The notes beneath the pieces are model-generated. The model made no database searches. It was not told the origin of the DNA and saw only the letters and a list, made by a program, of their open reading frames with translations. A program made the position numbers and the translations under genes. Of a DNA stretch of 39,490 nt, positions 2,960 to 22,456 are shown in pieces. Origin of the DNA: Seleniivibrio woodruffii (GTDB lineage Bacteria > Chrysiogenota > Deferribacteres > Deferribacterales > Geovibrionaceae); NCBI RefSeq assembly GCF_004339245.1, contig NZ_SMGG01000008.1:1-39490 (forward strand), given 5' to 3'. Each line of letters starts with the position of its first letter. Position 1 is the first letter of the stretch.

Positions 2960-3180
2960 ATTATCTCGTCCACCCTCTCGTGGATCCTCGAAATGTCCGA
3001 GTGCAGAAGCTGATGCTTGTGCTTGCACTCGTTCTTTGCCACATAGTCACGGGCGAGGATTATGTTTGTCCGCTCCTGACCCTTTCTCAGTTCCCCGATC
3101 GAACGCCAGAGCGGCAGAAGAACCATCGCCGAGAGACTGCCCAGATTCTGGATTATGTCTGAAAATGAAATCTCCGTCAT
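2956..3180 (-). CDS. Small phage-type protein with one hydrophobic segment, last gene of the structural block
   Basis: A 74-residue protein of unknown family. Residues about 12-27 form a hydrophobic segment (LGSLSAMVLLPLW), followed by a charged helical tail rich in His, Lys and Glu (residues 30-74). Its ATG overlaps the TGA of the tail fibre gene (ATGA), so it is translationally coupled to it. Small bitopic proteins at this place in phage late operons are often holin-like or XhlA-like accessories, but no such family is recognisable here and no endolysin follows. Its TAA stop overlaps the stop of the convergent histidine kinase, with no terminator in between. Confidence 0.7.
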   Translation of the reverse strand: MTEISFSDIIQNLGSLSAMVLLPLWRSIGELRKGQERTNIILARDYVAKNECKHKHQLLHSDISRIHERVDEII

Positions 3181-4949: not shown

Positions 4950-4962
4950 GTCTCCTCCTTAT

Positions 4963-6036: not shown

Positions 6037-6046
6037 ATAAAACCTG

Positions 6047-7036: not shown

Positions 7037-7758
7037 CAGCTCACCGTGAAAATATCGTTGTTGACGTTGTCCTCATCCGTGCGCTTATAGCCGGATTTTT
7101 CAACCAGCAGGCTGTAGGTTCCGGTCTTCATACTTCCCAGCCGCACTCTGCCCTCGCTGTCGCTTTTGCCCATGTATTTTCCGTTCACATAGATGTGAGC
7201 GTCTTTAAGCGTCTTTTTCGTGCATGCGTCTCGGACGGTCAGAATGACAGTGCGGGTGTAGGTTCCGGTGGTTAGGTCATCTGTGAAATCCAGAGCGAAG
7301 ATTCCGCTTTGTCCCGCCTTTTCAGCGGATACCAGACAAAAGACGCTGTCCGGACAGGTGACATCCACAAGGTCGTATACTGTTTCGTACACCAGTTTCA
7401 GAACGGACGTTGCCGCCTGCGGCAGATAGATATTGCTGTCGGTAAATACGGGGTTTCCGCCGTCCTCCCCTTGCCATTCGGCTGTGAGAGCAAGAGCCAC
7501 GGGGAAGGTTGCCGAAGCCTTGCGGCTGTTTTTGAATATTATAAACTCGGTTATCTGCTGTCTCAGCCCCGATGCATAGGTTTTCACCGTGCCTCTGGTG
7601 ACTGACAGAGAGGGTGACTGTCCGCCGGGATAGAGTTTCAGGCGGGCAGTGAAACCTGCCGGAAAAACGGTGGTTCCGTTGTTCTCCTCGGGTTCCAGAA
7701 AGAATTTATATGCGCCGTTTTCCGCATATTTACCAAATGTTATGCTTCTGTCAGCCAT
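7036..7758 (-). CDS. Putative phage structural protein with C-terminal Ig/carboxypeptidase-regulatory-like domain
   Basis: A 240-residue protein. The ATG at 7758 is chosen over the upstream in-frame ATG because GGAGG sits 7 bases before it. Residues about 1-150 are beta-rich and unknown. The last 75 residues look like a carboxypeptidase-regulatory or PEGA-like beta-sandwich: LTVRDACTKKTLKDAHIYV, then NGKYMGKSDSEGRV and GTYSLLVEKSGYK. Such domains decorate phage tails and capsids and bind surface sugars weakly. The gene overlaps the end of the upstream ORF by 8 bases and is coupled to the next through ATGA. Confidence 0.65.
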   Translation of the reverse strand: MADRSITFGKYAENGAYKFFLEPEENNGTTVFPAGFTARLKLYPGGQSPSLSVTRGTVKTYASGLRQQITEFIIFKNSRKASATFPVALALTAEWQGEDGGNPVFTDSNIYLPQAATSVLKLVYETVYDLVDVTCPDSVFCLVSAEKAGQSGIFALDFTDDLTTGTYTRTVILTVRDACTKKTLKDAHIYVNGKYMGKSDSEGRVRLGSMKTGTYSLLVEKSGYKRTDEDNVNNDIFTVS

Positions 7759-8254
7759 TGAGAGCCTCCGCATAGACCAGAACGGGGTAGGTGTCCCTGT
7801 TCTTCGCTGTCAGTTTCAGCCCGAAAAGTGCATAGGCGGTGCGGTAGCTTATCAGCGCAGTGCCTATCCTGCCTTGCGATGGTCTGGGAGTTTCGGAACA
7901 TGTCACTGAATAGGGACTTCTGCGGGTTATGGCTCCAAGCTCCCTGCCCAGCCATGTGAAGCTGTTCAGTGTGAGAACCGGCTTACCGGATGGTGCCGTT
8001 GATTCCTCTATGAACGAAACGTTCTCGTCCGCCACCTCTTCGGTGAATATTCCGTGGGAGGTGAGGGAGCCATCCGTAGCGAACACTGCAAGCCTGTCGG
8101 GGTTTTCGGCATAGATGCGGAAATATGCCGTTTCTCCGTAGGTGAAAGATGTTTTTTCTCTGCCTGCGGAGTCGGTGTTCCGCTCGCTGTCGGCGGCTAT
8201 TATAATTTTTGCTCCGCCTGTTGAGGTCACAAAGCTGATGGTTGCGTTGGTCAT
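7751..8254 (-). CDS. Putative phage structural protein, unknown family
   Basis: A 167-residue protein starting MTNATISFVTSTGGAKIII. The first half reads like an Ig-like beta-sandwich (FTYGETAYFRIYAENPDRL, then a FATDG strand). The second half contains a block with Leu-Gly-Arg-Glu-Leu-Gly and Thr-Arg-Arg and no clear signature. The ATG overlaps the TGA of the preceding large gene (ATGA), and its end overlaps the next gene by 8 bases, a strong sign of translational coupling. No function can be given beyond membership in the late structural operon. Confidence 0.55.
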   Translation of the reverse strand: MTNATISFVTSTGGAKIIIAADSERNTDSAGREKTSFTYGETAYFRIYAENPDRLAVFATDGSLTSHGIFTEEVADENVSFIEESTAPSGKPVLTLNSFTWLGRELGAITRRSPYSVTCSETPRPSQGRIGTALISYRTAYALFGLKLTAKNRDTYPVLVYAEALNG

Positions 8255-9876
8255 GGATGTACCTCGATGATATTTTTAACCGCCAGAGGATCGGCATTGA
8301 CCTTGATCTTTGCCGAAGCCACCCTGCCTCTGCCGAAACTGCTTTTGCAGAAAAGTCCGGCGGGTGTGTTCAGTCCGTCCGTGCGGGTTGTTTCCAGTGT
8401 TATTGTTTCAGGGGTCGCCGCCAGTGTGTGCGCCAGCCTGAGAGCTGTTACGCAGTCGAGCACAGCGGGAGCGTCTACGGTGAGTGTCTCTCTGCCGCCT
8501 TTGAAGAAAACTGTCACTGAGCTGTCGGTGACGGCACGGACGTATCTTTTCACTTCCGCCGTCTCCGAAAGGGTGTAAAGGTCGTAAACAGCTGTGTAGG
8601 CTGCCTCCCTCCATCCGTTCAGTCCTTCGGCTGATACTTTTTTGCCGTCGGCCGTCATCCCTTCGGTCAGCACTTTCACTGCGGGAAGCGACAGAACCCC
8701 TTTGCCGTTTTGGAAAAGGACGTTTTCCGTAACAGTCTCCGTAATTCCACCTGCCGTTTTCGCAAGCCCTGCGGAATCCGATAGCAGGCGGGAGCTTCCG
8801 CCGTGGTACAGACGTATTTTCACATCTGTGTTCAGCCCCGCTTCTGCGGGTGCTTCTATGTGAACGTGATTTGAGGTGTCGCCTCTGTAATTAACTGTTA
8901 CAGCTCTGTATTTTTGTTCATGCTTTTTGAATGTGCGTGCGAACACCCCTTCGGGTCTTATGCCGTGTGTTGTGCCGCCGCCCGTTACGGCTATGTAGCC
9001 GTTCGGCAGAAGTCGGGCTGAAAGCCCTGCGCTGTCGGCCAGATACGATGCCAGCGACCAGTGGGTGAAGGTTCCTTTGATGCGGGCGGTGAAATCCTCT
9101 GCCGCCCAGACTATCTTTCCGGAAAGGAGCATGACCGCTTCGGACGCTTTCATGGCGTCTATGTCGGCGGTGAAACTCCCTTCAGGTTCCGGCATTATGC
9201 CGCTCATAACAGTTTTTCCTCCCCCTTCAGAACAGGTAATGATATCGAAGCTATAGAAATCGCCGTTCAGATCTATGCTGACAAGGCGGGGACAGGAGAT
9301 TTTTGCCTCAGCTTTCAGCGTCGGAATGCCGTTCAGGGATATTTCAAGGGATATGAGGTCTTTAGTACGGTCTTTGCCGTCACATATGAATGTTACGGAA
9401 TCGTCAGCCGCCGATGAGGTCACAGGCGGACGGACAATGCTTACTTTTCCGCTCTGGGAGGTTTTGAGGAGGGGATTATTTATGCGGGTAAGTCCTTTAA
9501 GACCGTAGTCCCCTATTGTGCTGAGGATGTCGCATCCGCCACTGATTCCCGCTCCTGTGACAGCGGGCAGGATAAAAAATCCGTTTTCACTCAGGCTGTT
9601 GGCGATCGTCAGACCTGCGGTGTCGCTGTCCATCGCCGAGAGGGTGTTTTTCAGCACGCATTCCCCGCCAACGGGCAGAGCAAAATCCGCCGTCAGAACA
9701 GAGGCTGAATCCTGACCCAGTGAAGACAGTATGGCGGTTGAGCCGCCGGCCGAATTTGAAGTCATCAGCAAATCTCCTCCGTAAAATATGAATGGAGCCT
9801 TAAGGCCGACCATTCCGCTGTGTGCGGCTTCTGCGGCGAAGCCTGCGCCTGTGTATTCTCCTGCGCACGTTTCCAT
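8251..9876 (-). CDS. Putative tail hub/baseplate-like structural protein
   Basis: A 541-residue protein. The open frame extends to 9915, but the ATG at 9876 follows the upstream gene's stop by one base (TGA-C-ATG), so I use it. The central part (about residues 165-330) has the pattern ISLEISLNGIPTLKAEAKI, then IVWAAEDFTARIKGTFTHW and LLPNGYIAVTGG. This recalls hub or late-control type tail proteins in its alternating strands and a small helical insert. The C-terminal 200 residues are rich in Thr and Val. It is the largest protein between capsid and fibre. A hub assignment is inference from size, position and fold impression; no catalytic motif is seen. Confidence 0.55.
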   Translation of the reverse strand: METCAGEYTGAGFAAEAAHSGMVGLKAPFIFYGGDLLMTSNSAGGSTAILSSLGQDSASVLTADFALPVGGECVLKNTLSAMDSDTAGLTIANSLSENGFFILPAVTGAGISGGCDILSTIGDYGLKGLTRINNPLLKTSQSGKVSIVRPPVTSSAADDSVTFICDGKDRTKDLISLEISLNGIPTLKAEAKISCPRLVSIDLNGDFYSFDIITCSEGGGKTVMSGIMPEPEGSFTADIDAMKASEAVMLLSGKIVWAAEDFTARIKGTFTHWSLASYLADSAGLSARLLPNGYIAVTGGGTTHGIRPEGVFARTFKKHEQKYRAVTVNYRGDTSNHVHIEAPAEAGLNTDVKIRLYHGGSSRLLSDSAGLAKTAGGITETVTENVLFQNGKGVLSLPAVKVLTEGMTADGKKVSAEGLNGWREAAYTAVYDLYTLSETAEVKRYVRAVTDSSVTVFFKGGRETLTVDAPAVLDCVTALRLAHTLAATPETITLETTRTDGLNTPAGLFCKSSFGRGRVASAKIKVNADPLAVKNIIEVHP

Positions 9877-9877
9877 G

Positions 9878-11053
9878 TCAGCCCGCCCTGAACCATTTTG
9901 TCCCGCTGCATGCAAACGAGGCGTAGTCCCCTTCGGCGTTCAGAAAATATTCGCCGCCGCTCAGTCCGCCCACCATAACTGGGTTTGGTGTGCTGTCGGT
10001 GCGTATGACGGTGACCTTCTGCCCTGCCGTCTGGGAAGCTGAACCAAGGGAGACGTATGCGTATCCGTTTGAAGTGTCTGCGAAAACGAGGGATACTTCT
10101 TTGGACAGCTGAACAAAACCTGTGGCTGTGATGTGCAGGTTTGCAGAGCCGGAAGAGCCGCCGCCGGAGGCAGAGAGAACCTCCACTCCGCCGGAGCCGT
10201 TCAGCATCAGCCATGCGCATTCCCCTTTTTTTGAAAGTTCCGATACCACAGAACCCGTGGACTGGTGATAAAGGGTTATTTTGTTCGCCGAACTGTCGGA
10301 TTTCAGCACCGGAAACGGTACGTTTCGCATTGCTGGATTGTCGGCTATGTACAGGCTGAGAGGATACTGCGATGCATCCGCATACACGACGGTTCCGCAT
10401 GCGTTCAGCTGTCCGCTGGTGCTGATCTGCTGAAAGGATCGGGGGGAGAACGCTTCCGTTCCGGTTATCTGCCATATGCCGTTTATGACCGATATTCGCA
10501 GGGTGCATCCTGCGCCGACTATCACCTGCGTCTGCCCGTCGAACCCTATGACATCATTTTCGGCAGTGCTCAGAACTGCAAACTGAGTCATGCCCCTTCC
10601 GCAGTTCATGATGGTCAGCATATTTCCGCTGAAGAGTGCGGCCTCCGGCAGAGTGAAGGTCTTTACGGATTCATTCTCAGCATATGAGAGCAGAACAAAA
10701 CTGTCGGAAGGCTCAATGGCCCCGCTTTGGGTCAGAGTGCGGGCGGCTATGAAGGCCGAAATGGAGTTCAGAGTATCCGCCGTAACAACGTTTGCGATGA
10801 GGCTTCCAGTGTTCCAGTCTGCCGCTTCTGTGCCCTCAAGCCCTCGCTGAATGGTCATACCTGCTTCGGTTCTGGTCACGAGGACAATTTCTCTGCCGTC
10901 ATCCTCCGAAGGAGCCGCAAATCCTTTGTTCCAGATAACCGCCGTGAAGTTCCCGTAAGGAAACCTTTCCGGATGCTCAACTGAAAGCTCCGTTGCGTCT
11001 GCGGGAAGATACTCCGAAAGTGATGATCTTGCGAAGTTTGCGAACCTGTTCAT
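9878..11053 (-). CDS. Putative tail-fibre-like / neck structural protein
   Basis: A 391-residue protein. Residues about 1-95 contain a pattern I associate with phage tail proteins: ...REIVLVTRTEAGMTIQRGLE, then GTEAADWNTGSLIANVVTAD. The RG.EGT..A.W..G motif recurs in fibre-like and neck-like proteins. Residues about 95-300 are beta-repeat-like, followed by a Gly/Ser linker (SASGGGSSGS) and a C-terminal beta domain. The ATG overlaps the TGA of the upstream gene. The ORF is intact. The motif supports a tail-associated role, but the exact position in the particle is unknown. Confidence 0.65.
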   Translation of the reverse strand: MNRFANFARSSLSEYLPADATELSVEHPERFPYGNFTAVIWNKGFAAPSEDDGREIVLVTRTEAGMTIQRGLEGTEAADWNTGSLIANVVTADTLNSISAFIAARTLTQSGAIEPSDSFVLLSYAENESVKTFTLPEAALFSGNMLTIMNCGRGMTQFAVLSTAENDVIGFDGQTQVIVGAGCTLRISVINGIWQITGTEAFSPRSFQQISTSGQLNACGTVVYADASQYPLSLYIADNPAMRNVPFPVLKSDSSANKITLYHQSTGSVVSELSKKGECAWLMLNGSGGVEVLSASGGGSSGSANLHITATGFVQLSKEVSLVFADTSNGYAYVSLGSASQTAGQKVTVIRTDSTPNPVMVGGLSGGEYFLNAEGDYASFACSGTKWFRAG

Positions 11054-12003
11054 CAGTCTATCTGCCAGTCCAGAGTTATCCTGTTATCAGGTTCATGGGG
11101 ACAGCCTGCGGGCACGACCTCTTTCAGCCAGAAACCCTTTGCCGAAGGGAGAGTGACCAGCGTAACGCTGTTGCCCGCTTCAAATGCCCCCGACCAGCAT
11201 GCGGAGGGGATTGTGAAATAGGGCTTTCCTGTTTTGGGGTTAACGGGTGAATACTGGGCGGTTATCTGGCCGGAGGGGAGGTTTCCGGCATAAAAGCCCG
11301 ATGCGGTGAAAGCGAATGCGGATGTGAAGGTCAGCGAGAAGGTGTCGAATTCCGTTCCGCCGTTTGACAGCACCACCTTTGTCCGGTCAAATCCGCCTGT
11401 GAGACTGCTTATCTCCGCACTTTCAAGCTCTGGGGCGAGATCGCCCAGTTCCAGCATTACCCCGACGTATGTATCTTCGGAATCGAAAGAGTGGGGGAGC
11501 TGACCTTCGAGGGTGACGGCCGCCGTGTTCACGTTTTTTGTAACAGATGCAACCCTTGCATTGCAGGATTTTTCGTCATCCTGAATGAGAAGCAGTGCCC
11601 CTTCGGGGATGCTGTAGTCCGAGGATTTGAACAGCACAGAAACGGAGGTGTCGCCTGCGGATGCGCTGAGGCTCAGTCTTCCGCATCCCGTCCACTGGGA
11701 GGGAACATCCGCCTGTGTGTCTTCATGGTCTGCAGGAGCAATGTAGAACCTGTCCTGACCGCTGCCGGGCATCCCTATGCCAACGCATGCGCCGTATGCA
11801 GTTTCGCCGTTTGAGTTTTTGTTCAGAATGTATGCCTTGCGGTATCTGGTGATGCCTGATTCCCGCTCAGATGAGGTCACTCTGGGGAAGAGATTGAACT
11901 TAACCCCCGAAACCACAGTGGAGGCAAGGTCACACCTGCCGCCGTTTGAATCCGTGTCGTTTATGCTTACGCTTCTGATGATGCTTATATCCGTCTGATT
12001 CAT
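11053..12003 (-). CDS. Putative phage structural protein, unknown family
   Basis: A 316-residue protein with no domain that I can name. It contains DRFYIAPADHEDTQADVPSQ and a segment rich in small strands (LSLSASAGDTSVSVLF), then GALLLIQDDEKSCNARV. The latter resembles a module common in phage structural proteins that describes an attachment or flange. The C-terminal half has FTASGFYAGNLPSGQITAQY and ends in a Pro/Trp-rich strand. It starts 2 bases after the previous gene ends and its stop overlaps the next start. A virion role is inferred from the operon. Confidence 0.58.
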   Translation of the reverse strand: MNQTDISIIRSVSINDTDSNGGRCDLASTVVSGVKFNLFPRVTSSERESGITRYRKAYILNKNSNGETAYGACVGIGMPGSGQDRFYIAPADHEDTQADVPSQWTGCGRLSLSASAGDTSVSVLFKSSDYSIPEGALLLIQDDEKSCNARVASVTKNVNTAAVTLEGQLPHSFDSEDTYVGVMLELGDLAPELESAEISSLTGGFDRTKVVLSNGGTEFDTFSLTFTSAFAFTASGFYAGNLPSGQITAQYSPVNPKTGKPYFTIPSACWSGAFEAGNSVTLVTLPSAKGFWLKEVVPAGCPHEPDNRITLDWQID

Positions 12004-12005
12004 CC

Positions 12006-12374
12006 TTAAACCTCCAAAAGCCTTATTGTTCCGTAATAGCTGTCGTCGCCCGCCTGTGTCTGCTTTGCCCTGACGGGTTTCAGCTCAATGGCTGAACTGT
12101 CGGATGCAAAACGCACCGAAAACTCTCTGCCGTTTATCTCCGCATGCACTGCGGATCTGTCCGCCGCTATGCGGCAGAGGGCTATAACATCGTCACGCTT
12201 CATGCCGCTCTCTGTGGCGGGAATGTATATTTCCAGATTTCTGTTCTCCGATCCGTAATAAACCCTGTCTGTGCCCGCAAGGTCGGTCTCAACGGCCGCC
12301 ATAGGCTGTCCGTATGCTGTTTCGTTTGCCCAGACCGCCGTTTCGGGCAGTGTTATTCCTGCTATTGTCATCAT
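12006..12374 (-). CDS. Small putative tail-completion/minor tail protein
   Basis: A 122-residue protein. I prefer the ATG at 12374, because AGGTG lies 6 bases before it and the upstream gene's TGA just precedes it; a GTG at 12383 is also in frame. The sequence has a compact alpha/beta look: ITLPETAVWANETAYG, then EIYIPATESGMKRDDVIAL and EFSVRF near the C-terminus. Small proteins of this size following head-tail connectors are often tail terminators or distal tail proteins. No family is recognised with certainty. Confidence 0.55.
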   Translation of the reverse strand: MMTIAGITLPETAVWANETAYGQPMAAVETDLAGTDRVYYGSENRNLEIYIPATESGMKRDDVIALCRIAADRSAVHAEINGREFSVRFASDSSAIELKPVRAKQTQAGDDSYYGTIRLLEV

Positions 12375-12376
12375 GT

Positions 12377-12730
12377 TCAGCACCTGTATCCGGCTTCGAT
12401 GACAAAGGTCATCGTTCTGGTGTCTGTTGTGTGTATTGAGCTTGAAACCGACACCGCCGGAGTGTTTGTTATGGCCTCCACAGCGGTGTGGAGGGGTGAC
12501 GTGTCGGCACTGCCCACCGAGAGCAGACGGACGTAAATCTTCAGCCGATGCTCTGTGACCTGCACACCGCCGTCGGACAGTGTTTCAAACCCCGCATAGG
12601 CGACCGCCGCCAGCGGCTCCTTTCCGGTCATAACCTCCGTACTGCCGTCTTTCAGCAGAACACGGGTGAATACCCCGCATCCGGAGAGCACCTCAACTGT
12701 GTCAACGATGAGCTGTGCCGCCGTTCTCAT
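12377..12730 (-). CDS. Small putative head-tail joining / tail terminator protein
   Basis: A 117-residue protein starting MRTAAQLIVDTVEVLSG. The start at 12730 overlaps the upstream stop as ATGA, and the longer open frame above it is antisense noise. An N-terminal helix is followed by strands (VFTRVLLKDGSTEVMTG), a helix (PLAAVAYAG) and EHRLKIYVRLLSVGSAD. The helix-strand layout and the position after the connector candidate resemble tail terminator proteins (lambda gpU / HK97 gp10 style). That assignment is structural analogy only. Confidence 0.55.
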   Translation of the reverse strand: MRTAAQLIVDTVEVLSGCGVFTRVLLKDGSTEVMTGKEPLAAVAYAGFETLSDGGVQVTEHRLKIYVRLLSVGSADTSPLHTAVEAITNTPAVSVSSSIHTTDTRTMTFVIEAGYRC

Positions 12731-13092
12731 CTGTAGCCCTGCCAGTCGGTTCTGCCCGCCGCAGTGTAGCCTGCGGATTTTGAAGCAAGGATGCCCTCCG
12801 CAACGGGCGCAAGGGGTGACAGAATCTGCGCCGCCTGGGATTTGTACTGTTCGGCGGTGGTCCATTCCGCCGCATAGATGTAAAGTTCTGCCAGTGCACG
12901 TTTCTTCACCGCAAGACGAAGGACGGAATCCGCCTCGTCATACTCGATGCCGTAGCTCTCAGCCACCGCCTGAACATAGATACGGGCGTTCTCCAGAGCC
13001 TCTTCCGCCACCGAATCGTCACCCTGACATATGGCCAGATACTCCTCTTCCCGCATAAGCTCCTGAATCTCTTCTATGTCGATCGTTTCCAT
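12727..13092 (-). CDS. Putative head-tail connector protein
   Basis: A 121-residue, mostly helical acidic protein (METIDIEEIQELMREEEY..., then ALENARIYVQAVAESYG and LRLAVKKRALAELYIYAAEW). HK97 gp6-like head-tail connectors have the same character: an N-terminal acidic helix, A.....I....G, and a long helix before a disordered end. The ATG at 13092 is preceded by AGGTG, and a GTG nine bases upstream is less likely. It is the first gene after the intrinsic terminator that follows the capsid gene, the expected connector position in lambda-type head modules. Confidence 0.65.
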   Translation of the reverse strand: METIDIEEIQELMREEEYLAICQGDDSVAEEALENARIYVQAVAESYGIEYDEADSVLRLAVKKRALAELYIYAAEWTTAEQYKSQAAQILSPLAPVAEGILASKSAGYTAAGRTDWQGYR

Positions 13093-13104
13093 AGTGTTCA
13101 CCTG

Positions 13105-13141
13105 AAAAAAGGCGGGGGGATGCCCCGCCCTGTATTTTTTT
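13105..13141 (-). terminator. Intrinsic terminator behind the major capsid gene
   Basis: A perfect 7-bp GC stem (GGCGGGG at 13111-13117 paired with CCCCGCC at 13123-13129) has a 5-base loop. It is followed in the minus-strand direction by six T residues (13110-13105) and preceded by an A run. It lies directly behind the capsid stop codon and before the connector gene. Phages often place a leaky terminator here so that capsid transcripts outnumber those of downstream genes. Confidence 0.85.
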
Positions 13142-14123
13142 AGAGCACTGTTGCCCAGCAGATCCCTTTTGTGAAAGGAACGGGGAGGGGTTTGCTCTCG
13201 GCGATGATCTCAATGCTGGATGAGCGGGGGTCACGCACCTGCTTAACGAAGAAGGGCATGGCGGTGAGGTTGCTGTCCAGATCGTCGATCACTGAGTAAA
13301 CAAGCTCAAAGGGAGCGTCGGCGGCGAAGGCCATCAGCTTCTGACTGTCGACGACCTTAACCTGCGAACCCGTGGCAAGGTCTGTGTATGAGCTGTTCAT
13401 AAGTTCAACACGGAACCCTGCGATGTTGATGGTCTTGGCGTCGATCATAGCCGTGAATGATGTGTTGCCTGTGTCCTGAACTATTTTTGCCAGAGCCATG
13501 AAGGCCGACTGTCCCGCCCAGAAGCGTATATCGGAGCCGTAGTGGCTGCTGTTCTGAATCTGCGCCTCCATGCCGATGAGGTCGGCGAGGATGTCGTCAA
13601 GGCTGATTGATGATTCGTTCCAGACCTCTTCGGGGGTATGGGAAAGGGTTGAGCCGAAGTCCACGCCGTAGGTTGCGAACCCGCCGTCCATAGCCATGGG
13701 ATAGGCGATGCTTCCTTTAAGCGACTGTGCGGCCATGGCCTCGGTGGACGCTCTCACGATTCTGCGCAGACGGTCTATCTTGTTGTTCACAAGGAGCTGA
13801 ATGCCTGATTCGTCAAGGAGCTTGAGGTTGTTGACATCGACGCCGTTCAGTCTCTCCGAGGGACGGAAGGGCTGGGGTTCGATGTGGGTTATGCTTCCGT
13901 TCTCCTCATACACGGGAACGGGGTCGCCGCCCCTTCTGGTGACAGCTATGTTTGAAACGGGCTGCTGAAGGTCTGCCACAGATACCGTGGGCAGGGGGTG
14001 GCTGCGCCTTTTTGCTTCGGGGTAAACGCTGTCCAGCACGGGTGATTTCAGCTCCGGCATGGACGAAAGGGTGCGTACTATCGCATCTGATGTAAAATAT
14101 TTACCGAGATCAAACTGTATCAT
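13140..14123 (-). CDS. Major capsid protein, lambda gpE family
   Basis: A 327-residue capsid protein, close to the lambda gpE length (341). Features of the gpE family: an N-terminal region with PKxKRRS-like residues (YPEAKRRSHPLP), a VSVADLQQPVSNIAVTRRGGDP segment, EPQPFRPSERLNGVDVNNL, then the spine helix and a central A-domain. The C-terminal part has VVDSQKLMAFA and FVKQVRDPRSSSIEI. The ATG at 14123 has AAGGAG upstream. The order decoration then capsid matches lambda D-E. No truncation is visible and all conserved blocks are intact, so it should be able to fold. Confidence 0.9.
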   Translation of the reverse strand: MIQFDLGKYFTSDAIVRTLSSMPELKSPVLDSVYPEAKRRSHPLPTVSVADLQQPVSNIAVTRRGGDPVPVYEENGSITHIEPQPFRPSERLNGVDVNNLKLLDESGIQLLVNNKIDRLRRIVRASTEAMAAQSLKGSIAYPMAMDGGFATYGVDFGSTLSHTPEEVWNESSISLDDILADLIGMEAQIQNSSHYGSDIRFWAGQSAFMALAKIVQDTGNTSFTAMIDAKTINIAGFRVELMNSSYTDLATGSQVKVVDSQKLMAFAADAPFELVYSVIDDLDSNLTAMPFFVKQVRDPRSSSIEIIAESKPLPVPFTKGICWATVL

Positions 14124-14135
14124 TTTTAAAACTCC

Positions 14136-14498
14136 TTAGTAGACCCAGACAGGGGTGTTCGCCTCAAGGGCGGCTATGTCTGCGGAAGATGCTTCCGTGC
14201 CTTTAACGGTGAGGCTCTTTTTCATAACAGTTCCGTGGACGGCAACGCTTCCTGCGGTGTCCTTTGCCGTGTCGATGTCCTGAATGCAAACGCCCACAGG
14301 GGTCTTTTTGCTGTCAGATGCTGCGGGGTCAAAGCTGACCGCTTTGCCTGCCGTGCTCAGGGCGATTATTTCGCCCGCTCTGATGATTCCCGCACCGGAT
14401 GCAAACTCCATCGTGCGGATGACGGCGGGGTGTCTGCCGTCTGTGACTGTTTTTCCGGTGATGGTCTGTGTGCCCACCACTCCGTTGACTGTTGCCAT
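14136..14498 (-). CDS. Head decoration protein, lambda gpD-like
   Basis: A 120-residue protein that matches head decoration proteins in size (lambda gpD is 110). It has an N-terminal extension with a GRHPAVIRTMEFASG block, then IIRAGEIIALSTAGKAVSFD, and a hydrophobic GTVMKKSLTV strand near the C-terminus. Such proteins trimerise on the expanded capsid and stabilise it after DNA filling. The ATG at 14498 has GGAGG seven bases upstream. It lies between the scaffold/protease and the capsid gene, as in lambda-type head clusters. Confidence 0.82.
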   Translation of the reverse strand: MATVNGVVGTQTITGKTVTDGRHPAVIRTMEFASGAGIIRAGEIIALSTAGKAVSFDPAASDSKKTPVGVCIQDIDTAKDTAGSVAVHGTVMKKSLTVKGTEASSADIAALEANTPVWVY

Positions 14499-14510
14499 TG
14501 ATTTCCTCCT

Positions 14511-15197
14511 TTAAATTTTTGAGAAGATAGATGCCGCAGGGGCTTTTGATGTGCTGAGGGCGTGTGCGCCCTGTGCGACGGGGTTTTTTACCCTGCCGAA
14601 GATGTCCGCAAGGGTGTCGGCCGCATTAAGAGCGGGATGCTCCCTCTCCAGACTGTCGGCAAATGCCATGAGCGAGCCGTATGCGGCGGCGGGAAGTTTT
14701 CCTGCGGCGGCGTCCTTCAGCTTTGTCAGCTTCGCATCGAGGTTTTTCGCCTTCAGACGTGAAAACTCCGACAGTTCGCTGTCGGACAGCACAAATCCGC
14801 AGTTAAGGGGTGAGAAGGTGACGATCTTCGACCTGTCGCCCATGCTGATGAGCTTCAGGTTTTTGATCATGGGGGGCACAGCGCCCAGAAACGCAACATG
14901 GTGAAGATAGAGCGAGTCCTCTTCGTTGCGTGCGGCACCAATGCTCCAGTTTTTGAATCTGCCCTCTGAAAAGGCCTCGGCCAGTTCCGCTCCAAGCTCT
15001 ATTTCGCCCAGAAGCACGGAGCCGTCCGCAGACACCTCGACGGACGTTACCCAGCCGTATGCGGGCATGCTGTCGTCCGACTCGTGCCCGATGGTCACGG
15101 GAACCTGCGGCGCAAAATTCCCGGCCATGCTGAGGATATCTTCGGGGGTTATTACCACTCCGTTGTGATTCCCTGCTCTGGCAAGTTCCAGTTTCAT
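14511..15197 (-). CDS. Putative prohead protease fused to scaffold
   Basis: A 228-residue protein, first gene of the structural block. Residues about 10-120 show the layout of prohead proteases: a candidate catalytic His38 in TIGHE, a strand pair, a candidate catalytic Ser85 in NWSIGA, then LHHVAFLGAVPPMIKNL. The LGA.PP motif is typical of the phage protease/scaffold group. Residues 130-228 are helical, Ala/Lys-rich and charged, as expected of a scaffold. It precedes decoration and capsid genes like lambda C/Nu3. The start at 15197 has GGAGG. The catalytic residues are inferred from pattern. Confidence 0.7.
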   Translation of the reverse strand: MKLELARAGNHNGVVITPEDILSMAGNFAPQVPVTIGHESDDSMPAYGWVTSVEVSADGSVLLGEIELGAELAEAFSEGRFKNWSIGAARNEEDSLYLHHVAFLGAVPPMIKNLKLISMGDRSKIVTFSPLNCGFVLSDSELSEFSRLKAKNLDAKLTKLKDAAAGKLPAAAYGSLMAFADSLEREHPALNAADTLADIFGRVKNPVAQGAHALSTSKAPAASIFSKI

Positions 15198-15287
15198 ATT
15201 TCCGCCTCCTATTGTTTTCGGATTGGGGAAATATACAGAAAAAATATTTGCAATATGTTTAAGAAGGCTTAAGAAACAGATATTATT

Positions 15288-15315
15288 TGTATAAAATCTC
15301 TTTCAATATATTCAA
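15288..15315 (-). promoter_or_regulatory. Candidate sigma-70 promoter for the phage structural operon
   Basis: On the minus strand TTGAAT (15315-15310) and TATACA (15293-15288) are separated by 16 bases in an AT-rich gap upstream of the scaffold/protease gene. It would give a leader of about 85 bases. The spacing is one short of ideal and the region is AT-rich, so chance matches are likely. It matters because it would let the block be transcribed on its own despite lacking upstream packaging genes. Confidence 0.4.
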
Positions 15316-15356
15316 ATAGAGTATATGCTTTAGAAAAAATGACGGGGGATGTCCCT

Positions 15357-16316
15357 ATGCTTAAAAGAGCTTTGATTGTCTGCTCCTGTTTCTCGCTCAT
15401 GGCCTGCGCCGGGCAGAATGCGGCCGTGTATTACGATGCGGCGGCGGTGTCCGCAAAACAGCCCGGAATAGAGACCGCTCTGAGAACCTATGACAGCACG
15501 GTTAAAAAGAGCGTCCACTCCCAGCACTATTACGGAGCGAGGGGAGATATCTTCTTTGCATATAAAGACTACGGCTCGGCAGTGAACGAATATACCAAGG
15601 CGCTCAGAAATGCAGATTCCGCCGAGCTGCATATGAAAAGAGCACAGGCCTATATGAAGCTGGGGTTCTACCCAGATGCGGCCTACGACTTCGGGATGGC
15701 GGCGGAGAGCGGCGGCGAACTGAAATACAGAGCCTATGCCGGACGGGCGAAGGCGTATATTGAGCTTGGGAAATATGCGGAAGCACTTAAAGATATAGAC
15801 AGGGCGAAGTCCGGAGCTGATACCTCCGCAGAACTTGAAAAAGCCATGGCTGAGATTTTCTTTAAGACAGCCGACTATGCAAAGGCGAAAGAACACGTTC
15901 AGCGTGCGCTTGCTTCAGATCCGGACAAGGGGGAGCTTTATTTTCTCAGAGGCAGAATATTCTATAAGACCAAGGATGCAAATCAGGCTCTGAGCGACTA
16001 TGAGAGAGCCGTTGCCATGCAACCTGAAAATACTGCGGCAAAGTATGAACTGGCCAGAGTGCTTTCCACCTGTCCCGTTTCAATGTACAGGGACGGACAG
16101 AGGGCGGTCAGAATTTCTCAGGAACTTTTCAGTACTGATCCGTCTGCCGACAACGCAATGATACTTGCGGCCTCCTATGCTGAAACGGGTGATTTCGACA
16201 AAGCATCCGACATTCTTAAAAATGCGGCTGATAAGGAAAAGGATCTTGTTAAGCAGGACGATATGCGGGTCTATCTTAAAGCATATCAGGAGAAAAGAAC
16301 CATAAATACCTGGTAG
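15357..16316 (+). CDS. TPR-repeat lipoprotein
   Basis: A 319-residue predicted lipoprotein. The signal peptide is MLKRALIVCSCFSLMAC with lipobox LMAC and acylated Cys17. The ATG at 15357 is chosen because GGGGGA precedes it, while the ATG at 15339 has no ribosome site. About seven tetratricopeptide repeats follow (for example GDIFFAYKDYGSAVNEYTKA, then LYFLRGRIFYKTKDANQAL). These form a superhelical scaffold for protein partners. It is a single gene between the structural block and the subtilase operon, read in the opposite direction from both. Similar lipoproteins include PilF/PilW-like and BamD-like assembly factors, but no specific identity is supported. Confidence 0.88.
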   Translation: MLKRALIVCSCFSLMACAGQNAAVYYDAAAVSAKQPGIETALRTYDSTVKKSVHSQHYYGARGDIFFAYKDYGSAVNEYTKALRNADSAELHMKRAQAYMKLGFYPDAAYDFGMAAESGGELKYRAYAGRAKAYIELGKYAEALKDIDRAKSGADTSAELEKAMAEIFFKTADYAKAKEHVQRALASDPDKGELYFLRGRIFYKTKDANQALSDYERAVAMQPENTAAKYELARVLSTCPVSMYRDGQRAVRISQELFSTDPSADNAMILAASYAETGDFDKASDILKNAADKEKDLVKQDDMRVYLKAYQEKRTINTW

Positions 16317-16457: not shown

Positions 16458-16629
16458 TTTCAACAGATTTCCCACATTTTTGTTGATAAAAAAGTGCTTG
16501 ACAGCTGAAATCCCCTGAATTTAGGGGTTGGTGATAAAAGCTTATTTATTAGGTCTTTACAGGGTAGGTTTAAATTAATATTGATAAACTTAGGTTTTTT
16601 CCTGCAAAGTTTTCAACAGGTTTTCCACA
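16458..16629. other. Cluster of DnaA-box-like nonamers in an AT-rich non-coding region
   Basis: The stretch 16317-16612 holds no gene. Within it and just past its edge are nonamers close to the DnaA box TTATNCACA: TTTCCCACA (16468), TGTTGATAA (16481, reverse of TTATCAACA), TGGTGATAA (16529), TATTGATAA (16579), TTTTCAACA (16610) and TTTTCCACA (16621). TTTCAACAG followed by a CCACA-type nonamer occurs at both ends, as an imperfect repeat about 150 bp apart. AT-rich tracts lie between. This is the look of a replication origin or a DnaA-controlled site. The best boxes have one mismatch and others two. Confidence 0.45.
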
Positions 16630-18790
16630 TCTTTGACGCAGGTTCAAGTATTCCGTCGTACTCACCGTATTTCTCAAGCATTTCCGAAAACATATTTTTG
16701 CTTTCGTGACTGAAAGATAGGACAATACAGTACCGGATATCGGTGTTTTCCGTATAAAAATCACGTTTATAGGGAGTTATCCGCAAAGTCAGTTTTGACG
16801 GTATTCTTGCACTTGTCAGTTTAGTTTGGTAAAGCTTAACCGGCTGCCATTTAAAGGTTTCCCGAAGTTTCTGCCTGCTGATGCCGGGCAGATCCGGCGC
16901 CAGAAGGTTCTTTGATGTGATTATGCTCTTCCACTCGCCGTTTCTGTGGAACCCCAGTGATGGTTCCAGATTGGTGCAGGAATAGAAATGGGGAAAGTTC
17001 ATGTTGGTTTTTGTTTTGTATACCAGCGTCAGCTCTATGCTTCCCGTAGCCTTGTGTTTTTCAAAAAATCCCGCAGGAACGGGTATCCCCTCAATCTCTA
17101 TTATATTGCCGTGGCGAACTGTGCCTTCGTGCAGATATACCAGACTGTTCGGCATATCCTCAAAGCCTTCGTGGTCGTCCGGAACGATACCGTATCCGGT
17201 GAATATATCGGGTGATGTCCGGTTTCTCAGACGGGTATAGTGCAGAAGGATCGCTTTTGCCATATCCGGGCTCTGAAAGAAGTGTGAGTATTTGTGATAG
17301 AGCTTTGCGGCCAGTGCAGACACTCTGGGGGCTGCATGGGATGTGCCCGAGTCCTCCGCCAGTTCGTTTCTGGTACCTATGGAGAACACCCCCACAGGAT
17401 AAAGCCTTCCCATCCGCTTTTCGTGGGTTCCTCCGTATGCGCAGACGTCCGGTTTTACGGAATAACCCGCTGCGGGGCCGTGTCGTGTGAAAAGGGAGGG
17501 TGTGTGAATGGACTGCACGTTCGTTTCCTTGTGGGTCACGGAACCAACAGTCAGCGCATGTATGCTCTCAGCAGGGGACGCAACCCTTGAACCTTCCGAT
17601 ACGGAGAAAGGATCGGAGCGGAGCGGCTCATAGTTTCCGGCTGAAACCACGAAGAGCACGTCATATTTCTCCTGAAGAATATCCAGAACATGTGCGGCGG
17701 CGGAGAATGACTCCGTGTCGGCTGGAATGTCCGAACCGAGGGAGATGTTGTAGATCTTAACGGTTTTGTGGAATTTTTTAAGCAGGATGTCCATTCTGTC
17801 GTGGAACTCATCCAGCGTGATCGAGCCTTCCGAAGGGAGGATACCTGCGTTAAGATAGAGGATGCCGCCGAAGGTCTCGCCCTCGTTGAGGAGTCTGCCT
17901 GCAACGAAGGTTCCGTGTTTCGGATTTCTGTCGCTCCGGTTGAAAAAGCTGAAACTGTCCAGTTCCCACTCTTTGAGATATGAAAAATCGGCAATTCCAG
18001 AATCCACAACTGCGGCTCTGGGGTATGATTTTTCGGTGTCTCTGACAGAGATGCACTCAAGGGGCAGGTCGCCGTGGCGGACGTAGTTCTCTCGGAATAT
18101 GAAGGTGCTGACAGGTGAAACAGAGCGCACCAGACTGTGGGTGGTCAGGGTGTCCAGACGGGATTTCAGGTCGTCTATTTGTGTCTGGATTATGGTGTAG
18201 CCGCCCAGATCATGAATTTTCAGATTCTTTGCCGCCATGTTCTCTTTCAGAAAGCCGACAAGCATGTCGTGCCCGTCTGCGCAGGGAAGGGTGTGTATAT
18301 AAACGTTCTCATCGGGCTTCAAGTCAGAAAGCCCGCATTCAAAAGGGCTGCTGAGTTCAATCTTGACCGATGGAAGCAGAGGAGCTATGCCCTCTATGTG
18401 GCTCATGGATGAGAGAAAATTTCTGCCCTGTCCATACACCAGCTGGTTGTTGAGCCTGTTCAGTGCTTCGCTGTCTGAAAGGGCGAACACCAGACGGTTT
18501 ATCTCCAGACTGGCTGTGGGGCGGATTCCGGTGGTGGACAGAAAATGATAACGAAGGGATTTTGAAAGTGAAAAATCGCGCAGGGTCAGCGTGTTGAAAA
18601 CCGGAAGTCCGAAGTTGTACTCAAATTTGCGGTAAAAACCGAACCCCTTTGTCAGCTCCGCCGCCATAACTTTTCTGTCGGGCAGTCCGAATGGCGAAGG
18701 CTTCGGCATTCCTCCCCTTACGATTCTGGGGTTTTGCCTCTGCATTGATCTGGAAAAACGAAGAATGAACGGGCAGCAATCGCTGTTCAT
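16613..18790 (-). CDS. Cytoplasmic subtilisin-like serine protease (S8 family), co-transcribed with a repressor
   Basis: A 725-residue subtilase. The triad is D263 (VVDSG), H292 (KHGTFVAG) and S484 (SGTSHAAP), with oxyanion N386 (SAGN). The order and spacing are normal, so it should be active. Residues 1-245 are a large N-terminal domain without signal peptide, and 500-725 a C-terminal beta-rich domain. This points to an intracellular enzyme, not a secreted degradative one. The ATG at 18790 has GGGAGG about 9 bases upstream. It starts 28 bases after the XRE repressor gene, in one operon. By position it parallels ImmA beside ImmR, and also recalls the IetS subtilase of the IetAS defence pair, but no AAA partner is present. 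Substrate unknown. Confidence 0.88.
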   Translation of the reverse strand: MNSDCCPFILRFSRSMQRQNPRIVRGGMPKPSPFGLPDRKVMAAELTKGFGFYRKFEYNFGLPVFNTLTLRDFSLSKSLRYHFLSTTGIRPTASLEINRLVFALSDSEALNRLNNQLVYGQGRNFLSSMSHIEGIAPLLPSVKIELSSPFECGLSDLKPDENVYIHTLPCADGHDMLVGFLKENMAAKNLKIHDLGGYTIIQTQIDDLKSRLDTLTTHSLVRSVSPVSTFIFRENYVRHGDLPLECISVRDTEKSYPRAAVVDSGIADFSYLKEWELDSFSFFNRSDRNPKHGTFVAGRLLNEGETFGGILYLNAGILPSEGSITLDEFHDRMDILLKKFHKTVKIYNISLGSDIPADTESFSAAAHVLDILQEKYDVLFVVSAGNYEPLRSDPFSVSEGSRVASPAESIHALTVGSVTHKETNVQSIHTPSLFTRHGPAAGYSVKPDVCAYGGTHEKRMGRLYPVGVFSIGTRNELAEDSGTSHAAPRVSALAAKLYHKYSHFFQSPDMAKAILLHYTRLRNRTSPDIFTGYGIVPDDHEGFEDMPNSLVYLHEGTVRHGNIIEIEGIPVPAGFFEKHKATGSIELTLVYKTKTNMNFPHFYSCTNLEPSLGFHRNGEWKSIITSKNLLAPDLPGISRQKLRETFKWQPVKLYQTKLTSARIPSKLTLRITPYKRDFYTENTDIRYCIVLSFSHESKNMFSEMLEKYGEYDGILEPASKMWKTC

Positions 18791-18818
18791 CGGGCCGAAC
18801 CTCCCGGAGATTGGCAGC

Positions 18819-19178
18819 TCAGCTTGAAAATTCTTTCAGCAAGGCCCTGACAACTGTTTCAATGAATCTGATCTTATCCTGTTCAAGGGACGAAACGTCG
18901 TCCAGAAGCTCATGCCAGCCGGCGGGAATATCCGGCCCCTGTGTGCTGTTCGGGCGGAGAACGGCTGTTTTAAAATCAGAAAGAGGTCTCTCTTCGTAGA
19001 AATATCTTATGTCGATATTATATCTTTTTGATATAGTTGAAAGTTTTGATGCATCGATACTGCCTGAGCACTCATAATGGCTTATCACCTGCTGAGTGAC
19101 GTTGAGCAGATTTCCCAGTTCTTTCTGGTTAATTTTCAGTTCTTTACGAAGTTCTTTGATTCTGTCGCCTATGTTCAT
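18819..19178 (-). CDS. XRE-family (Cro/CI-type) transcriptional repressor
   Basis: A 119-residue regulator. The HTH occupies residues about 6-60 (IKELRKELKINQKELGNLLN, then VTQQVISHYECSGS). The C-terminal 55 residues are acidic and helical, probably for dimerisation. It lacks the LexA-like self-cleavage domain of lambda CI, so induction would need an outside protease or anti-repressor. It is divergent from the excisionase-like gene across 110 bp that hold four operator-like repeats. No ribosome site precedes the ATG, and the predicted transcription start falls at the ATG itself, so the mRNA is probably leaderless. The subtilase gene follows after 28 bases. Confidence 0.88.
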   Translation of the reverse strand: MNIGDRIKELRKELKINQKELGNLLNVTQQVISHYECSGSIDASKLSTISKRYNIDIRYFYEERPLSDFKTAVLRPNSTQGPDIPAGWHELLDDVSSLEQDKIRFIETVVRALLKEFSS

Positions 19179-19183
19179 GCTTA

Positions 19184-19212
19184 GTTATACAGATTATTTG
19201 TGTCAGGTTCAA
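19184..19212 (-). promoter_or_regulatory. Sigma-70 promoter of the repressor-subtilase operon
   Basis: On the minus strand TTGAAC (19212-19207) and TATAAC (19189-19184) are separated by exactly 17 bases. The expected transcription start, about 7 bases past the -10 box, is near 19177, at or next to the repressor ATG (19178). Operator repeat 1 covers the spacer and part of the -10 box, and repeat 2 touches the -35 box, so the repressor probably regulates itself. Confidence 0.75.
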
Positions 19213-19273
19213 ACAGAAAATATTTGTTGAAAAATACAGACAATTTGTGTATAAGGATACAAATTATTTATGT
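19187..19273. promoter_or_regulatory. Four tandem operator-like repeats between repressor and excisionase-like genes
   Basis: Four related 17-base elements begin at 19187 (ATACAGATTATTTGTGT), 19211 (AAACAGAAAATATTTGT), 19234 (ATACAGACAATTTGTGT) and 19257 (ATACAAATTATTTATGT). Each is a partial palindrome with ATACA and TGTAT-like half-sites; the third extends to a full ATACA-N9-TGTAT. Their starts are 24, 23 and 23 bases apart, close to two helical turns, which suits cooperative binding of dimers. They overlap both divergent promoters and are the likely binding sites of the XRE repressor. Confidence 0.75.
19227..19255 (+). promoter_or_regulatory. Sigma-70 promoter of the excisionase-like gene
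   Basis: TTGAAA (19227-19232) and TATAAG (19250-19255) have a 17-base spacer. Operator repeat 3 fills the spacer and the -10 box, and repeat 4 lies across the start site, so bound repressor should shut this promoter. Transcription would start near 19262, giving a leader of about 27 bases with an AGGAGGAG ribosome site. Confidence 0.75.
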
Positions 19274-19288: not shown

Positions 19289-19540
19289 ATGGCAGCACCT
19301 TTTAAGGTTTGGGAGGAGGAGAGTATTTCGAAACAGATCGAGAAACTGGCATCAAAGAACCTGACAATATATCAGGTGGCCAGAATGCTTCAGGTGAGTC
19401 ACATCACTGTGCGCAGGTGGATTAAGGAGGCGAAGCTTATTGCATGGAACACCAGCATCGAAGGAAAGGGGCGCTGGCGTGTGCCAAAGGAGAGCCTTGA
19501 AGAGTTTCTGCAGGCGAGGAACTCTATGAATATAGACTAA
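19289..19540 (+). CDS. Excisionase-family / MerR-like HTH DNA-binding protein
   Basis: An 83-residue protein. The ATG at 19289 has AGGAGGAG immediately upstream; the open frame above it is not needed. Residues about 10-75 form a winged helix of the excisionase/HTH_17 kind: LTIYQVARMLQVSHITVRRW, then KGRWRVPKESLEEFL. Such proteins bend DNA as recombination directionality factors or act as small regulators. It is the only gene on the right arm of the switch, and directly after it comes repeat-rich DNA. Any integrase or early genes it once controlled are therefore missing here. It could also be an ordinary regulator. Confidence 0.8.
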   Translation: MAAPFKVWEEESISKQIEKLASKNLTIYQVARMLQVSHITVRRWIKEAKLIAWNTSIEGKGRWRVPKESLEEFLQARNSMNID

Positions 19541-20886: not shown

Positions 20887-21156
20887 CTATCGTTTCAGGT
20901 CACGATAGAAATTTTCATGAGAGCCCACTGAAAGAAGGGTTATGCAGCTTTCATCAAAAATGTATGCAATGAGATGAAGCTGACCGGAAAGGCGGCATTT
21001 ATAAACAAATACGGAAGCCAGATCACCTTTTTTCTGTTCTCCGGATTCAGGGTTTTTCATTATTATCCTGATTGCTTCATCAAGGTCGGATATTTGATTT
21101 TTGTGCAGCCTTTTCTTTTGTTTTGAGAAGTTTGCAGTCTGCAATACCCTTCTCAT
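20887..21156 (-). CDS. RelE/ParE-family toxin
   Basis: An 89-residue basic protein with the RelE/ParE fold pattern: an N-terminal strand and two basic helices (FSKQKKRLHKNQISDLDEAI), then a sheet with KCRLSGQLHLIAYIF and LLSVGSHENFYRDLKR. The SHENFYRDLKR end is common in RelE-type mRNA interferases, which cleave ribosome-bound mRNA; some relatives instead inhibit gyrase. It follows its antitoxin by 3 bases. The frame is complete, so the toxin is probably functional. Which target it hits cannot be read from the sequence. Confidence 0.88.
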   Translation of the reverse strand: MRRVLQTANFSKQKKRLHKNQISDLDEAIRIIMKNPESGEQKKGDLASVFVYKCRLSGQLHLIAYIFDESCITLLSVGSHENFYRDLKR

Positions 21157-21159
21157 GAA

Positions 21160-21381
21160 TTATTCTCCGAATTTATATTCTTCGGTCTCACCGTTTCGGG
21201 CTTCTTCAAGAGAAATCAGAATATCCTTTATCATTTTGTAGTTCAGTTCAGGATTCTCTTCAGCAATTTTCCCTATTTTTGCCCAATGTTCAATTTGGCC
21301 TCCGAGGGATCTGTTTTCAACTTTTGCCAGAACTCTTGCCGGAGTGACGATATCGTCGGAAATTCTTACTGCATGTGCCAT
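21160..21381 (-). CDS. ParD-like antitoxin
   Basis: A 73-residue antitoxin of the ParD-like family: MAHAVRISDDIVTPARVLAK, then ENRSLGGQIEHWAKIGKIAE and a C-terminal acidic helix ending YKFGE. The N-terminal strand and two helices form a ribbon-helix-helix-like DNA-binding unit, and the C-terminal part should wrap the toxin. The ATG at 21381 is chosen for its GGAGG site; the open frame upstream runs into the neighbouring gene. It precedes the toxin by 3 bases and probably represses the pair through the palindrome upstream. Confidence 0.88.
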   Translation of the reverse strand: MAHAVRISDDIVTPARVLAKVENRSLGGQIEHWAKIGKIAEENPELNYKMIKDILISLEEARNGETEEYKFGE

Positions 21382-21403
21382 AGTCGCCTCCATACAGTAA
21401 TAT

Positions 21404-21418
21404 ATTGCATAGTGCAAT
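21404..21418. promoter_or_regulatory. Palindromic operator of the toxin-antitoxin operon
   Basis: A perfect inverted repeat ATTGCA-TAG-TGCAAT lies 22 bases upstream of the antitoxin ATG. Another ATGCAATT half-site follows at 21422-21429. Antitoxins with ribbon-helix-helix folds bind such short palindromes over their own promoter. Confidence 0.6.
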
Positions 21419-21427
21419 GAAATGCAA

Positions 21428-22456
21428 TTATTTGTTTTTTGCGCAGGGGAAGCGTTTTTCAAAGTCCTCGCGTTCTCCGGGGTCGAAGCTGAATATACGT
21501 TTCCAGACGCTCTCGTGTTCCATGCAGAAATAGATGAACACATCCGGCCAGTATTTCCTGACCTCTTTCACGAAAAACTCAAGCATATAAACTCTTTGAG
21601 ACTTGAAATAGCGCATCTTGCCATCCAGAGATTTCACATATGAGCTTTGCAGAAGCAGGGACGAGCCGAATTTCTGCCGCACTATGTCCAGAAGCTCCGG
21701 AATGAAGCGGAAGGTGGAAACGCTGATGTATTTAACGGAAGCTTCGGGAACGGATTCCGCCATCATCTTTATGACCTCTGCGTAGTCCTTTTCAAAGTTA
21801 TCCGACCAGATGAGCGGATCGAAGTGGAACCCTATGCCAAGCCCGTGGGCGGCGCAGTCCTTTGCGGCTTTCAGCCTGTCCTGAATGCGTGCCGTTCCGT
21901 GCTCTTCGGCCTCCATTACGGAGGGCGGGTTAAGGCTCCATGAGGCCATGAGGTTCTTCGGATTGCAGTTCAGCAGGTTGCCGATGTTTGCGGATTTTGT
22001 CTTGAACTCGAACAGAATGTTATCTGATTTATTCACAACCTCTGCGATATAGCCGCTGAAATTGAAAATATGGTCGAGGGCGAGACTGTCGGTCAGCTCT
22101 CCCGTGCCCACACGGTAGAACCTGTCTTTGGGAAGATTGCGTATCTCCTGTGCGGCCTCTTCAAATCCTGCATAAACCTTTATGTAGTCGTGGTTCAGAT
22201 AGCTCTGGAGGATGCAGTAGGTGCAGTCGAAGGGGCAGCCTTCGGAGATGTCCGTCACATAATAATCACAGCATCTGTAAATCTTTGTGGCTGGGCATCT
22301 GTGGACAAAGGTGTTGCGCTCGTCGGCTATGTATATTGATGTTTTTTCGTCAGGCACTTCCGATACAGAATCCACAAGGGTGACGTCACGGTCTTTCATG
22401 ACCGCTTTTGCGGGTACGCTGTTCAGAGCGTTGCGGTCAAGATATATTCTGCTCAT
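21428..22456 (-). CDS. splB: Spore photoproduct lyase-like radical SAM enzyme
   Basis: A 342-residue radical SAM protein of the SplB type, which repairs UV-induced thymine dimers without light in spore formers. The iron-sulfur cluster motif is CPFDCTYCILQSYL near residue 94. Family blocks follow: YRVGTGELTDSLALDH, LFEFKTKSANI, ASWSLNPPSV, GIGFHFDPLIW and VSTFRF. Length agrees with SplB (about 340). Nothing in the window suggests sporulation, so it is likely one of the SplB relatives in non-sporulating bacteria, with an unknown lesion. The start overlaps the end of the upstream gene by 20 bases, suggesting joint translation. Confidence 0.9.
   Translation of the reverse strand: MSRIYLDRNALNSVPAKAVMKDRDVTLVDSVSEVPDEKTSIYIADERNTFVHRCPATKIYRCCDYYVTDISEGCPFDCTYCILQSYLNHDYIKVYAGFEEAAQEIRNLPKDRFYRVGTGELTDSLALDHIFNFSGYIAEVVNKSDNILFEFKTKSANIGNLLNCNPKNLMASWSLNPPSVMEAEEHGTARIQDRLKAAKDCAAHGLGIGFHFDPLIWSDNFEKDYAEVIKMMAESVPEASVKYISVSTFRFIPELLDIVRQKFGSSLLLQSSYVKSLDGKMRYFKSQRVYMLEFFVKEVRKYWPDVFIYFCMEHESVWKRIFSFDPGEREDFEKRFPCAKNK

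Follow-up and report, generated by a model that had tools for sequence, protein, structure and literature searches.

A repressor-subtilase module as putative control switch of a gene transfer agent-like element in Geovibrionaceae

The analysed window, a stretch of 39,490 nucleotides of Seleniivibrio woodruffii (contig NZ_SMGG01000008.1, positions 1 to 39,490), contains a gene for an XRE repressor followed by that of a subtilase. A preliminary description had dealt with these two genes; to them our analysis adds a divergent gene encoding an HTH_17/excisionase-family protein (hth17), an adjacent phage-type head operon and the conservation of all of them across the host family. This locus apparently serves to control an element that is inherited vertically, is spread over several loci and resembles a gene transfer agent (GTA). 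We consider it highly probable that XRE controls this element and probable that the element is GTA-like, that is, a domesticated phage. For the complete reading, in which the control switch of the GTA-like element combines repression by XRE, activation by HTH17 and inactivation of XRE by the subtilase, the chances appear to be about even.

The xre-subtilase-hth17 module

The XRE gene (18819-19178, minus strand) encodes 119 amino acids comprising an HTH (residues 3-60), a disordered linker (62-87) and a C-terminal helical hairpin (88-118) like those of DdrO, SinR and ImmR. HTH_3 was identified at an E-value of 1.3e-9 and the domain search found neither a cleavage nor a peptidase domain in this protein. 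After a gap of 28 bp (18791-18818), in which no terminator-like site was found, comes the gene of an IetS-type subtilase of 725 amino acids (16613-18790, minus strand), whose ATG is preceded by the Shine-Dalgarno sequence GGGAGG. The subtilase matches Peptidase_S8 (E 6e-29) and alignment showed that its triad D263/H292/S484, together with the oxyanion Asn386, is invariant across 11 family homologues. The architecture initially described, a 119-residue XRE protein without a self-cleavage domain followed after 28 bp by a 725-residue subtilase with a full Asp-His-Ser triad, is thus borne out. The absence of a signal peptide, also claimed at that time, agrees with the lack of a hydrophobic N-terminal segment as judged by inspection. 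In the opposite orientation to xre lies hth17 (19289-19540, plus strand), which encodes an 83-amino-acid DNA-binding protein that is the candidate activator. The list of open reading frames gives GTG at 19247 as its start, but the ATG at 19289 is the better one as it stands behind GGAGGAG.

The AlphaFold model of XRE consists of the HTH, the disordered linker and the C-terminal hairpin. Among its nearest solved relatives Foldseek returned DdrO, SinR, ImmR-DBD and CapH, with modest E-values of 0.003-0.05, and the repressor is accordingly modelled as a DdrO/SinR/ImmR-like protein, a class with protease-cleaved members. The model of the subtilase shows a propeptide-like fold (residues 163-226) before the catalytic domain, which is partly of low confidence; its best matches were ProN-Tk-SP and KP-43.

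Conservation was studied in 51 genomes of the phylum, 12 from Geovibrionaceae, the host family (Seleniivibrio, Denitrovibrio and two further genera, here called third and fourth), and 39 from elsewhere. The hth17, XRE and subtilase genes are kept in all 12 family genomes and in none of the other 39, and a full-length subtilase was present in exactly 12 of the 51, all of the host family. In each of these 12 genomes XRE lies upstream of the subtilase and hth17 is divergent from XRE, a linkage far beyond chance. The recurrence of the XRE-subtilase pair in other genomes, proposed beforehand as a test, therefore holds down to ~36% identity. Identity declines as relatives become more distant, being 53-64% within the genus, 45-48% with the second genus and 35-38% with the third and fourth genera. 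In the first two genera the module is flanked by ftsY and a TPR gene; the flanks differ in the others, where the three genes are still together.

Some particular features of individual genomes were also noted. In the metagenome assembly of Denitrovibrio G019 (L009) a GGA-to-TGA change places a stop in the catalytic GTS motif of the subtilase, and the operator of the head promoter is missing too. A recoded residue in the position of the active Ser was rejected, as the in-frame TGA results from a change in the Gly codon. In the window, a ParE-like toxin and ParD-like antitoxin pair (20887-21543, minus strand) lies between ftsY and a spore-photoproduct-lyase-like gene. In relatives, the tblastn matches of the ParD frame map to the terminal part of the lyase gene; among the genomes compared, the pair therefore looks specific to this one.

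Phage-derived loci, operators and shared promoter element

The whole head operon extends from 3177 to 15197 on the minus strand. Its first gene encodes the head maturation protease (14511-15197; phrog_976, E 5e-25), and it is followed by those of a lambda gpD-type head decoration protein (14136-14498; PF02924, E 3.6e-9; phrog_49) and of the major capsid protein Phage_cap_E (13140-14123; PF03864, E 4e-50). The capsid gene is single copy in all 12 family genomes, with identities from 92% down to 64%; elsewhere one distant capsid (40% identity) was found. Since the head operon encodes its own maturation protease, such a role for the subtilase was set aside. The remaining 11 head/tail genes (3177-13101, minus strand) are syntenic in relatives. 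The last one (3177-4949, minus strand) encodes a GTA_spike_fiber/laminin-G fibre protein in which conservation between the genera is mostly confined to the initial ~50-80 residues and the laminin-G/fibre part is variable, a pattern as for a receptor-binding protein. A TPR lipoprotein-like gene (15339-16316, plus strand) is divergent from the head operon in the 12 genomes, including those with a distant switch, and may be part of the element.

A second operon, present on another contig and in the 12 family genomes, was located by a search for the Mu-type portal and encodes a putative small terminase subunit, TerL and that portal. No DNA-binding domain was detectable in the putative TerS, which agrees with what is reported for GTAs (PMC11841831). 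A GpA-type terminase (PF05876) was rejected as the packaging enzyme because it occurs in 3 of the 12 genomes only, and scattered. The third operon, which carries a phage lysozyme (endolysin), was found in 8 of the 12 genomes; no homologue of the endolysin of the first and second genera was identified in 3 of the 4 genomes of the third and fourth. Head, terminase-portal and endolysin genes are three loci on three contigs, and in relatives the cluster has host genes on both flanks. Near these operons, the first two genera have a Fic/DOC-family gene (L058:13085-14176, plus strand) in divergent orientation to the terminase operon, and an 85-aa ORF without Pfam match (L088:5562-5819, plus strand) overlaps the end of the endolysin gene and is a possible holin or spanin-like partner.

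Vertical descent was read from the agreement among the trees of the subtilase, TerL and capsid genes: those of subtilase and TerL have 8 of 9 splits in common, and those of capsid and TerL 7 of 9. The dN/dS values lie between 0.02 and 0.17 and are mostly below 0.12. TerL matches thousands of phages with identities up to 50%. No phage relative of the capsid was found in the phage records or the IMG/VR scan, and those homologues of the subtilase that occur in phages or plasmids are only distantly related (<33%).

The xre-hth17 intergenic region contains four 15-bp palindromes of the form ACA-N9-TGT, all of them conserved across the family. Operator A (ACAGATTATTTGTGT, 19189-19203) overlaps the −10 and lies inside the spacer of the proposed xre promoter; operator B (ACAGAAAATATTTGT, 19213-19227) extends to the initial nucleotide of the hth17 −35; operator C (ACAGACAATTTGTGT, 19236-19250) falls within the spacer of the proposed hth17 promoter and is followed by operator D (ACAAATTATTTATGT, 19259-19273). 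The palindromes follow one another in steps of 23-24 bp in most genomes, the last step being of 19-21 bp in the third genus; in genome G024 they are kept only in part. The promoters proposed are TTGAAC-N17-TATAAC for xre and the subtilase (19184-19212, minus strand), read by eye and absent from the consensus-scan list, and TTGAAA-N17-TATAAG for hth17 (19227-19255, plus strand), read from the sequence. In a generic promoter scan, matches were no more frequent than in shuffled sequences, so these assignments are based only on conservation and position.

Another palindrome, operator E (ACAGATATTATTTGT, 15276-15290), is located upstream of the head operon. With a matrix trained on the switch sites only, it outscored all 9068 background windows (651 kb). 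The head-operon promoter scored high in 10 of the 12 genomes, each value being reached by only 0-18 of the 9068 windows; the matrix scan did not find the palindrome at the head promoter of Denitrovibrio G018 and G019. The head operon adjoins the module in two genera and is ~70-80 kb off in the other two, the third and fourth, and the presence of the same site at such a distance from the switch points to a trans-acting protein. We infer that XRE is the protein which binds the ACA-N9-TGT palindromes, a function that HTH17 could have instead. At the terminase and endolysin promoters the palindrome was not found, except for one match in one genome, and consequently XRE would reach these operons only via HTH17.

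These operons are joined by a different sequence. The promoter element of the head operon, TTAAACATAT-N17-TATATT (15230-15262, minus strand), is common to the terminase and endolysin operons, and CTTAAACATAT-N17-TATAAT-like sequences are common to the head and terminase operons. In the 2.9-Mb genome TTAAACATAT-N17-TANNNT occurs at two places, both phage operons (zero with the reversed control), and 15 of its 18 matches across the 12 genomes belong to the head, terminase or endolysin operons. When up to two mismatches to the full consensus were allowed in the Seleniivibrio woodruffii genome, the top three matches were the terminase (0 mismatches), endolysin (1) and head (1) operons; the endolysin operon was in fact discovered via this element. 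In the third genus it has drifted to YACAY-N3-RTAACAA-N19-TATATT, whose zero-mismatch matches in each of three genomes fall at the head and terminase operons and nowhere else; as this form was derived from those same promoters, the informative result is that no further match without mismatches occurs. The shared element is probably read by HTH17, the second conserved DNA-binding protein encoded in the module.

Origin and predicted role of the subtilase

The likeness to IetS suggested in the preliminary description was confirmed, since the subtilase matches the PADLOC IetS profile (PDLC02197) with an E-value of 2.7e-96 over residues 53-706, nearly its full length; with the NCBIfam IteS equivalog it obtained 260 bits, below the cut-off of 900. 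The AAA partner, noted at the same time as missing, was not found either: in this genome the best match to the IetA profile, a protein of 617 aa, reached 124 bits vs 459-485 for true IetA, and no bona fide IetA was identified. Among the best 80 homologues of the subtilase across 84,980 species, 7 belong to the host family and have XRE upstream. In the other 73 a Walker-A ATPase lies directly upstream in 64 and XRE in none; two of the upstream ATPases were checked and both are IetA. In viral contigs the homologues have an ATPase upstream in 35 of 37 cases. The simplest history for this distribution would be that an IetS protease was recruited into the switch, with the repressor replacing the ATPase. 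Separate IetA-IetS loci, independent of the XRE-linked subtilase, are present in genomes G018 (C1:265123-267987) and G021 (C1:247384-249791), the latter with an in-frame TAA in the IetA-profile match.

In the proposed mechanism, XRE would bind ACA-N9-TGT and repress its own operon, the divergent hth17 and, directly, the head operon; as far as sequence data allow us to judge, repression by XRE is well supported. HTH17, once freed, would probably activate the head, terminase-portal and endolysin operons at the shared element of their −35 region. The subtilase, formerly an IetS that would have lost its AAA partner and gained a repressor, would most likely inactivate XRE by cleavage, as ImmA does with ImmR, presumably in response to some inducing signal. 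ImmR is cleaved by ImmA in its hairpin region (PMC8960796), and DdrO is cleaved by PprI (PMC10904395); in XRE the predicted cut is probably in the linker or the C-terminal hairpin. Cleavage of XRE is favoured because of the position of the subtilase gene, the operon structure and the class of the repressor. That the subtilase acts on XRE has, in our opinion, slightly less than an even chance, and the particles produced would be expected to transfer DNA. We only tentatively suggest that a subtilase from an antiviral defence pair has become an anti-repressor and turns on a hitherto undescribed GTA fixed in a whole family of Deferribacterota.

The main rival explanation, which we find rather unlikely, is that the subtilase is a release or cell-death effector, silenced by XRE together with the particle genes, which helps to kill or open the producer as LypA and LypC do in Caulobacter. 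IetS belongs to the proteases of a defence family, in Caulobacter CARD-NLR peptidases take part in GTA lysis under CdxB (PMC13236601), and this role would fit the genomes of the third and fourth genera in which the endolysin homologue was not found. However, the phage lysozyme on the shared promoter gives the first and second genera their own lysis gene, and a place on the transcript of the repressor would be unusual for a late effector.

XRE control is common among defence genes, and this, along with the strong match to the IetS profile, would suit a stand-alone defence protease lying by chance beside the phage-derived cluster. Such a protease would not account for the vertical fixation in the whole family, the lack of IetA, the same operator at a head promoter tens of kb off in two genera or the exact co-occurrence with the phage-derived loci, and we regard it as very improbable. 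Even though XRE, a divergent HTH gene and adjacent head genes are the typical layout of a phage immunity region, it is most improbable that the locus belongs to an ordinary or decaying prophage, given its single copy in 12 species, the congruent trees, the purifying selection, the distribution of the operons over three or more loci and the location of the cluster between host genes in relatives. It is likewise improbable that the protease targets HTH17 or another regulator, thereby limiting rather than triggering the element. The operon layout indicates co-expression with the repressor, and HTH17 is equally conserved, but in ImmR/ImmA, DdrO/PprI and similar pairs it is the XRE partner that is cleaved (PMC8960796, PMC10904395).

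Comparison with known systems

GTAs are recognized by particle and packaging proteins derived from caudoviricetes, by endogenization, often at several loci, and by vertical inheritance with co-diversification with the host; further criteria are the packaging of mostly random host DNA, a head too small for the own genome and the delivery of DNA to other cells (PMC9662315). In the element described here we found the first three, that is, caudoviricete-type proteins (capsid, decoration, maturation protease, TerL and portal), several loci and vertical descent. These it shares with RcGTA, BaGTA, VSH-1 and Dd1 (PMC9662315), from which it differs in having a Mu-type portal alongside head genes of lambda type, in belonging to Geovibrionaceae/Deferribacterota and in being known from its genes alone. 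In the open-access literature, to which our search was limited, we found no report of a GTA in Geovibrionaceae or Deferribacterota, nor of a subtilase acting as anti-repressor. If the proposed reading is true, it would place a GTA-like system in a phylum for which none was found reported, add subtilases to the metallopeptidases as proteases that control repressors and give a hint at the function of an IetS protease without its ATPase. In addition, the small size of the circuit and the possible existence of cultured members make it feasible to study the system by gene deletion, by transcript analysis and by assays for particles.

GTA lysis in Caulobacter is driven by a defence-like system of the CARD-NLR kind in which two peptidase domains are needed; this system and gafYZ are both under the control of the repressor CdxB (PMC13236601). 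The control of CcGTA (RogA, GafYZ, CdxB, LypABC) resembles the one proposed here in that a repressor governs a dispersed phage-derived system via a DNA-binding activator and in that defence-type proteases were recruited (PMC11150451, PMC13236601); ours would be the second case, after LypABC, of such proteases in a GTA, now in the control circuit. LypABC has CARD-NLR and trypsin-like peptidases for lysis, unlike the single IetS-type S8 subtilase found here in a repressor operon of another phylum. The LypABC set of CARD, NLR-type ATPase and trypsin-like peptidase is not present at this locus, whose subtilase has no ATPase partner. With IetAS the system has in common a full-length IetS-type subtilase with an intact triad; it differs in the XRE gene that occupies the slot of IetA, in the lack of a convincing IetA elsewhere in the genome and in its vertical inheritance within the family.

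The closest layout is that of ImmR-ImmA of ICEBs1, and also of DdrO-PprI/IrrE and CapH-CapP, with a small XRE repressor bearing a C-terminal hairpin and a co-directional protease gene. The pairing with ImmR/ImmA advanced in the preliminary description stands as regards this layout, to which the divergent xis-like, excisionase-family HTH gene and the several operators serving both promoters, as in ICEBs1 (PMC8960796), can be added; it does not as regards the setting, which is neither an ICE nor a lone defence gene. The protease here is a Peptidase_S8 subtilase of the IetS family and not an ImmA/IrrE-type metallopeptidase, its cleavage of XRE is our proposal, and the element controlled is not an ICE but a phage-derived system inherited vertically.
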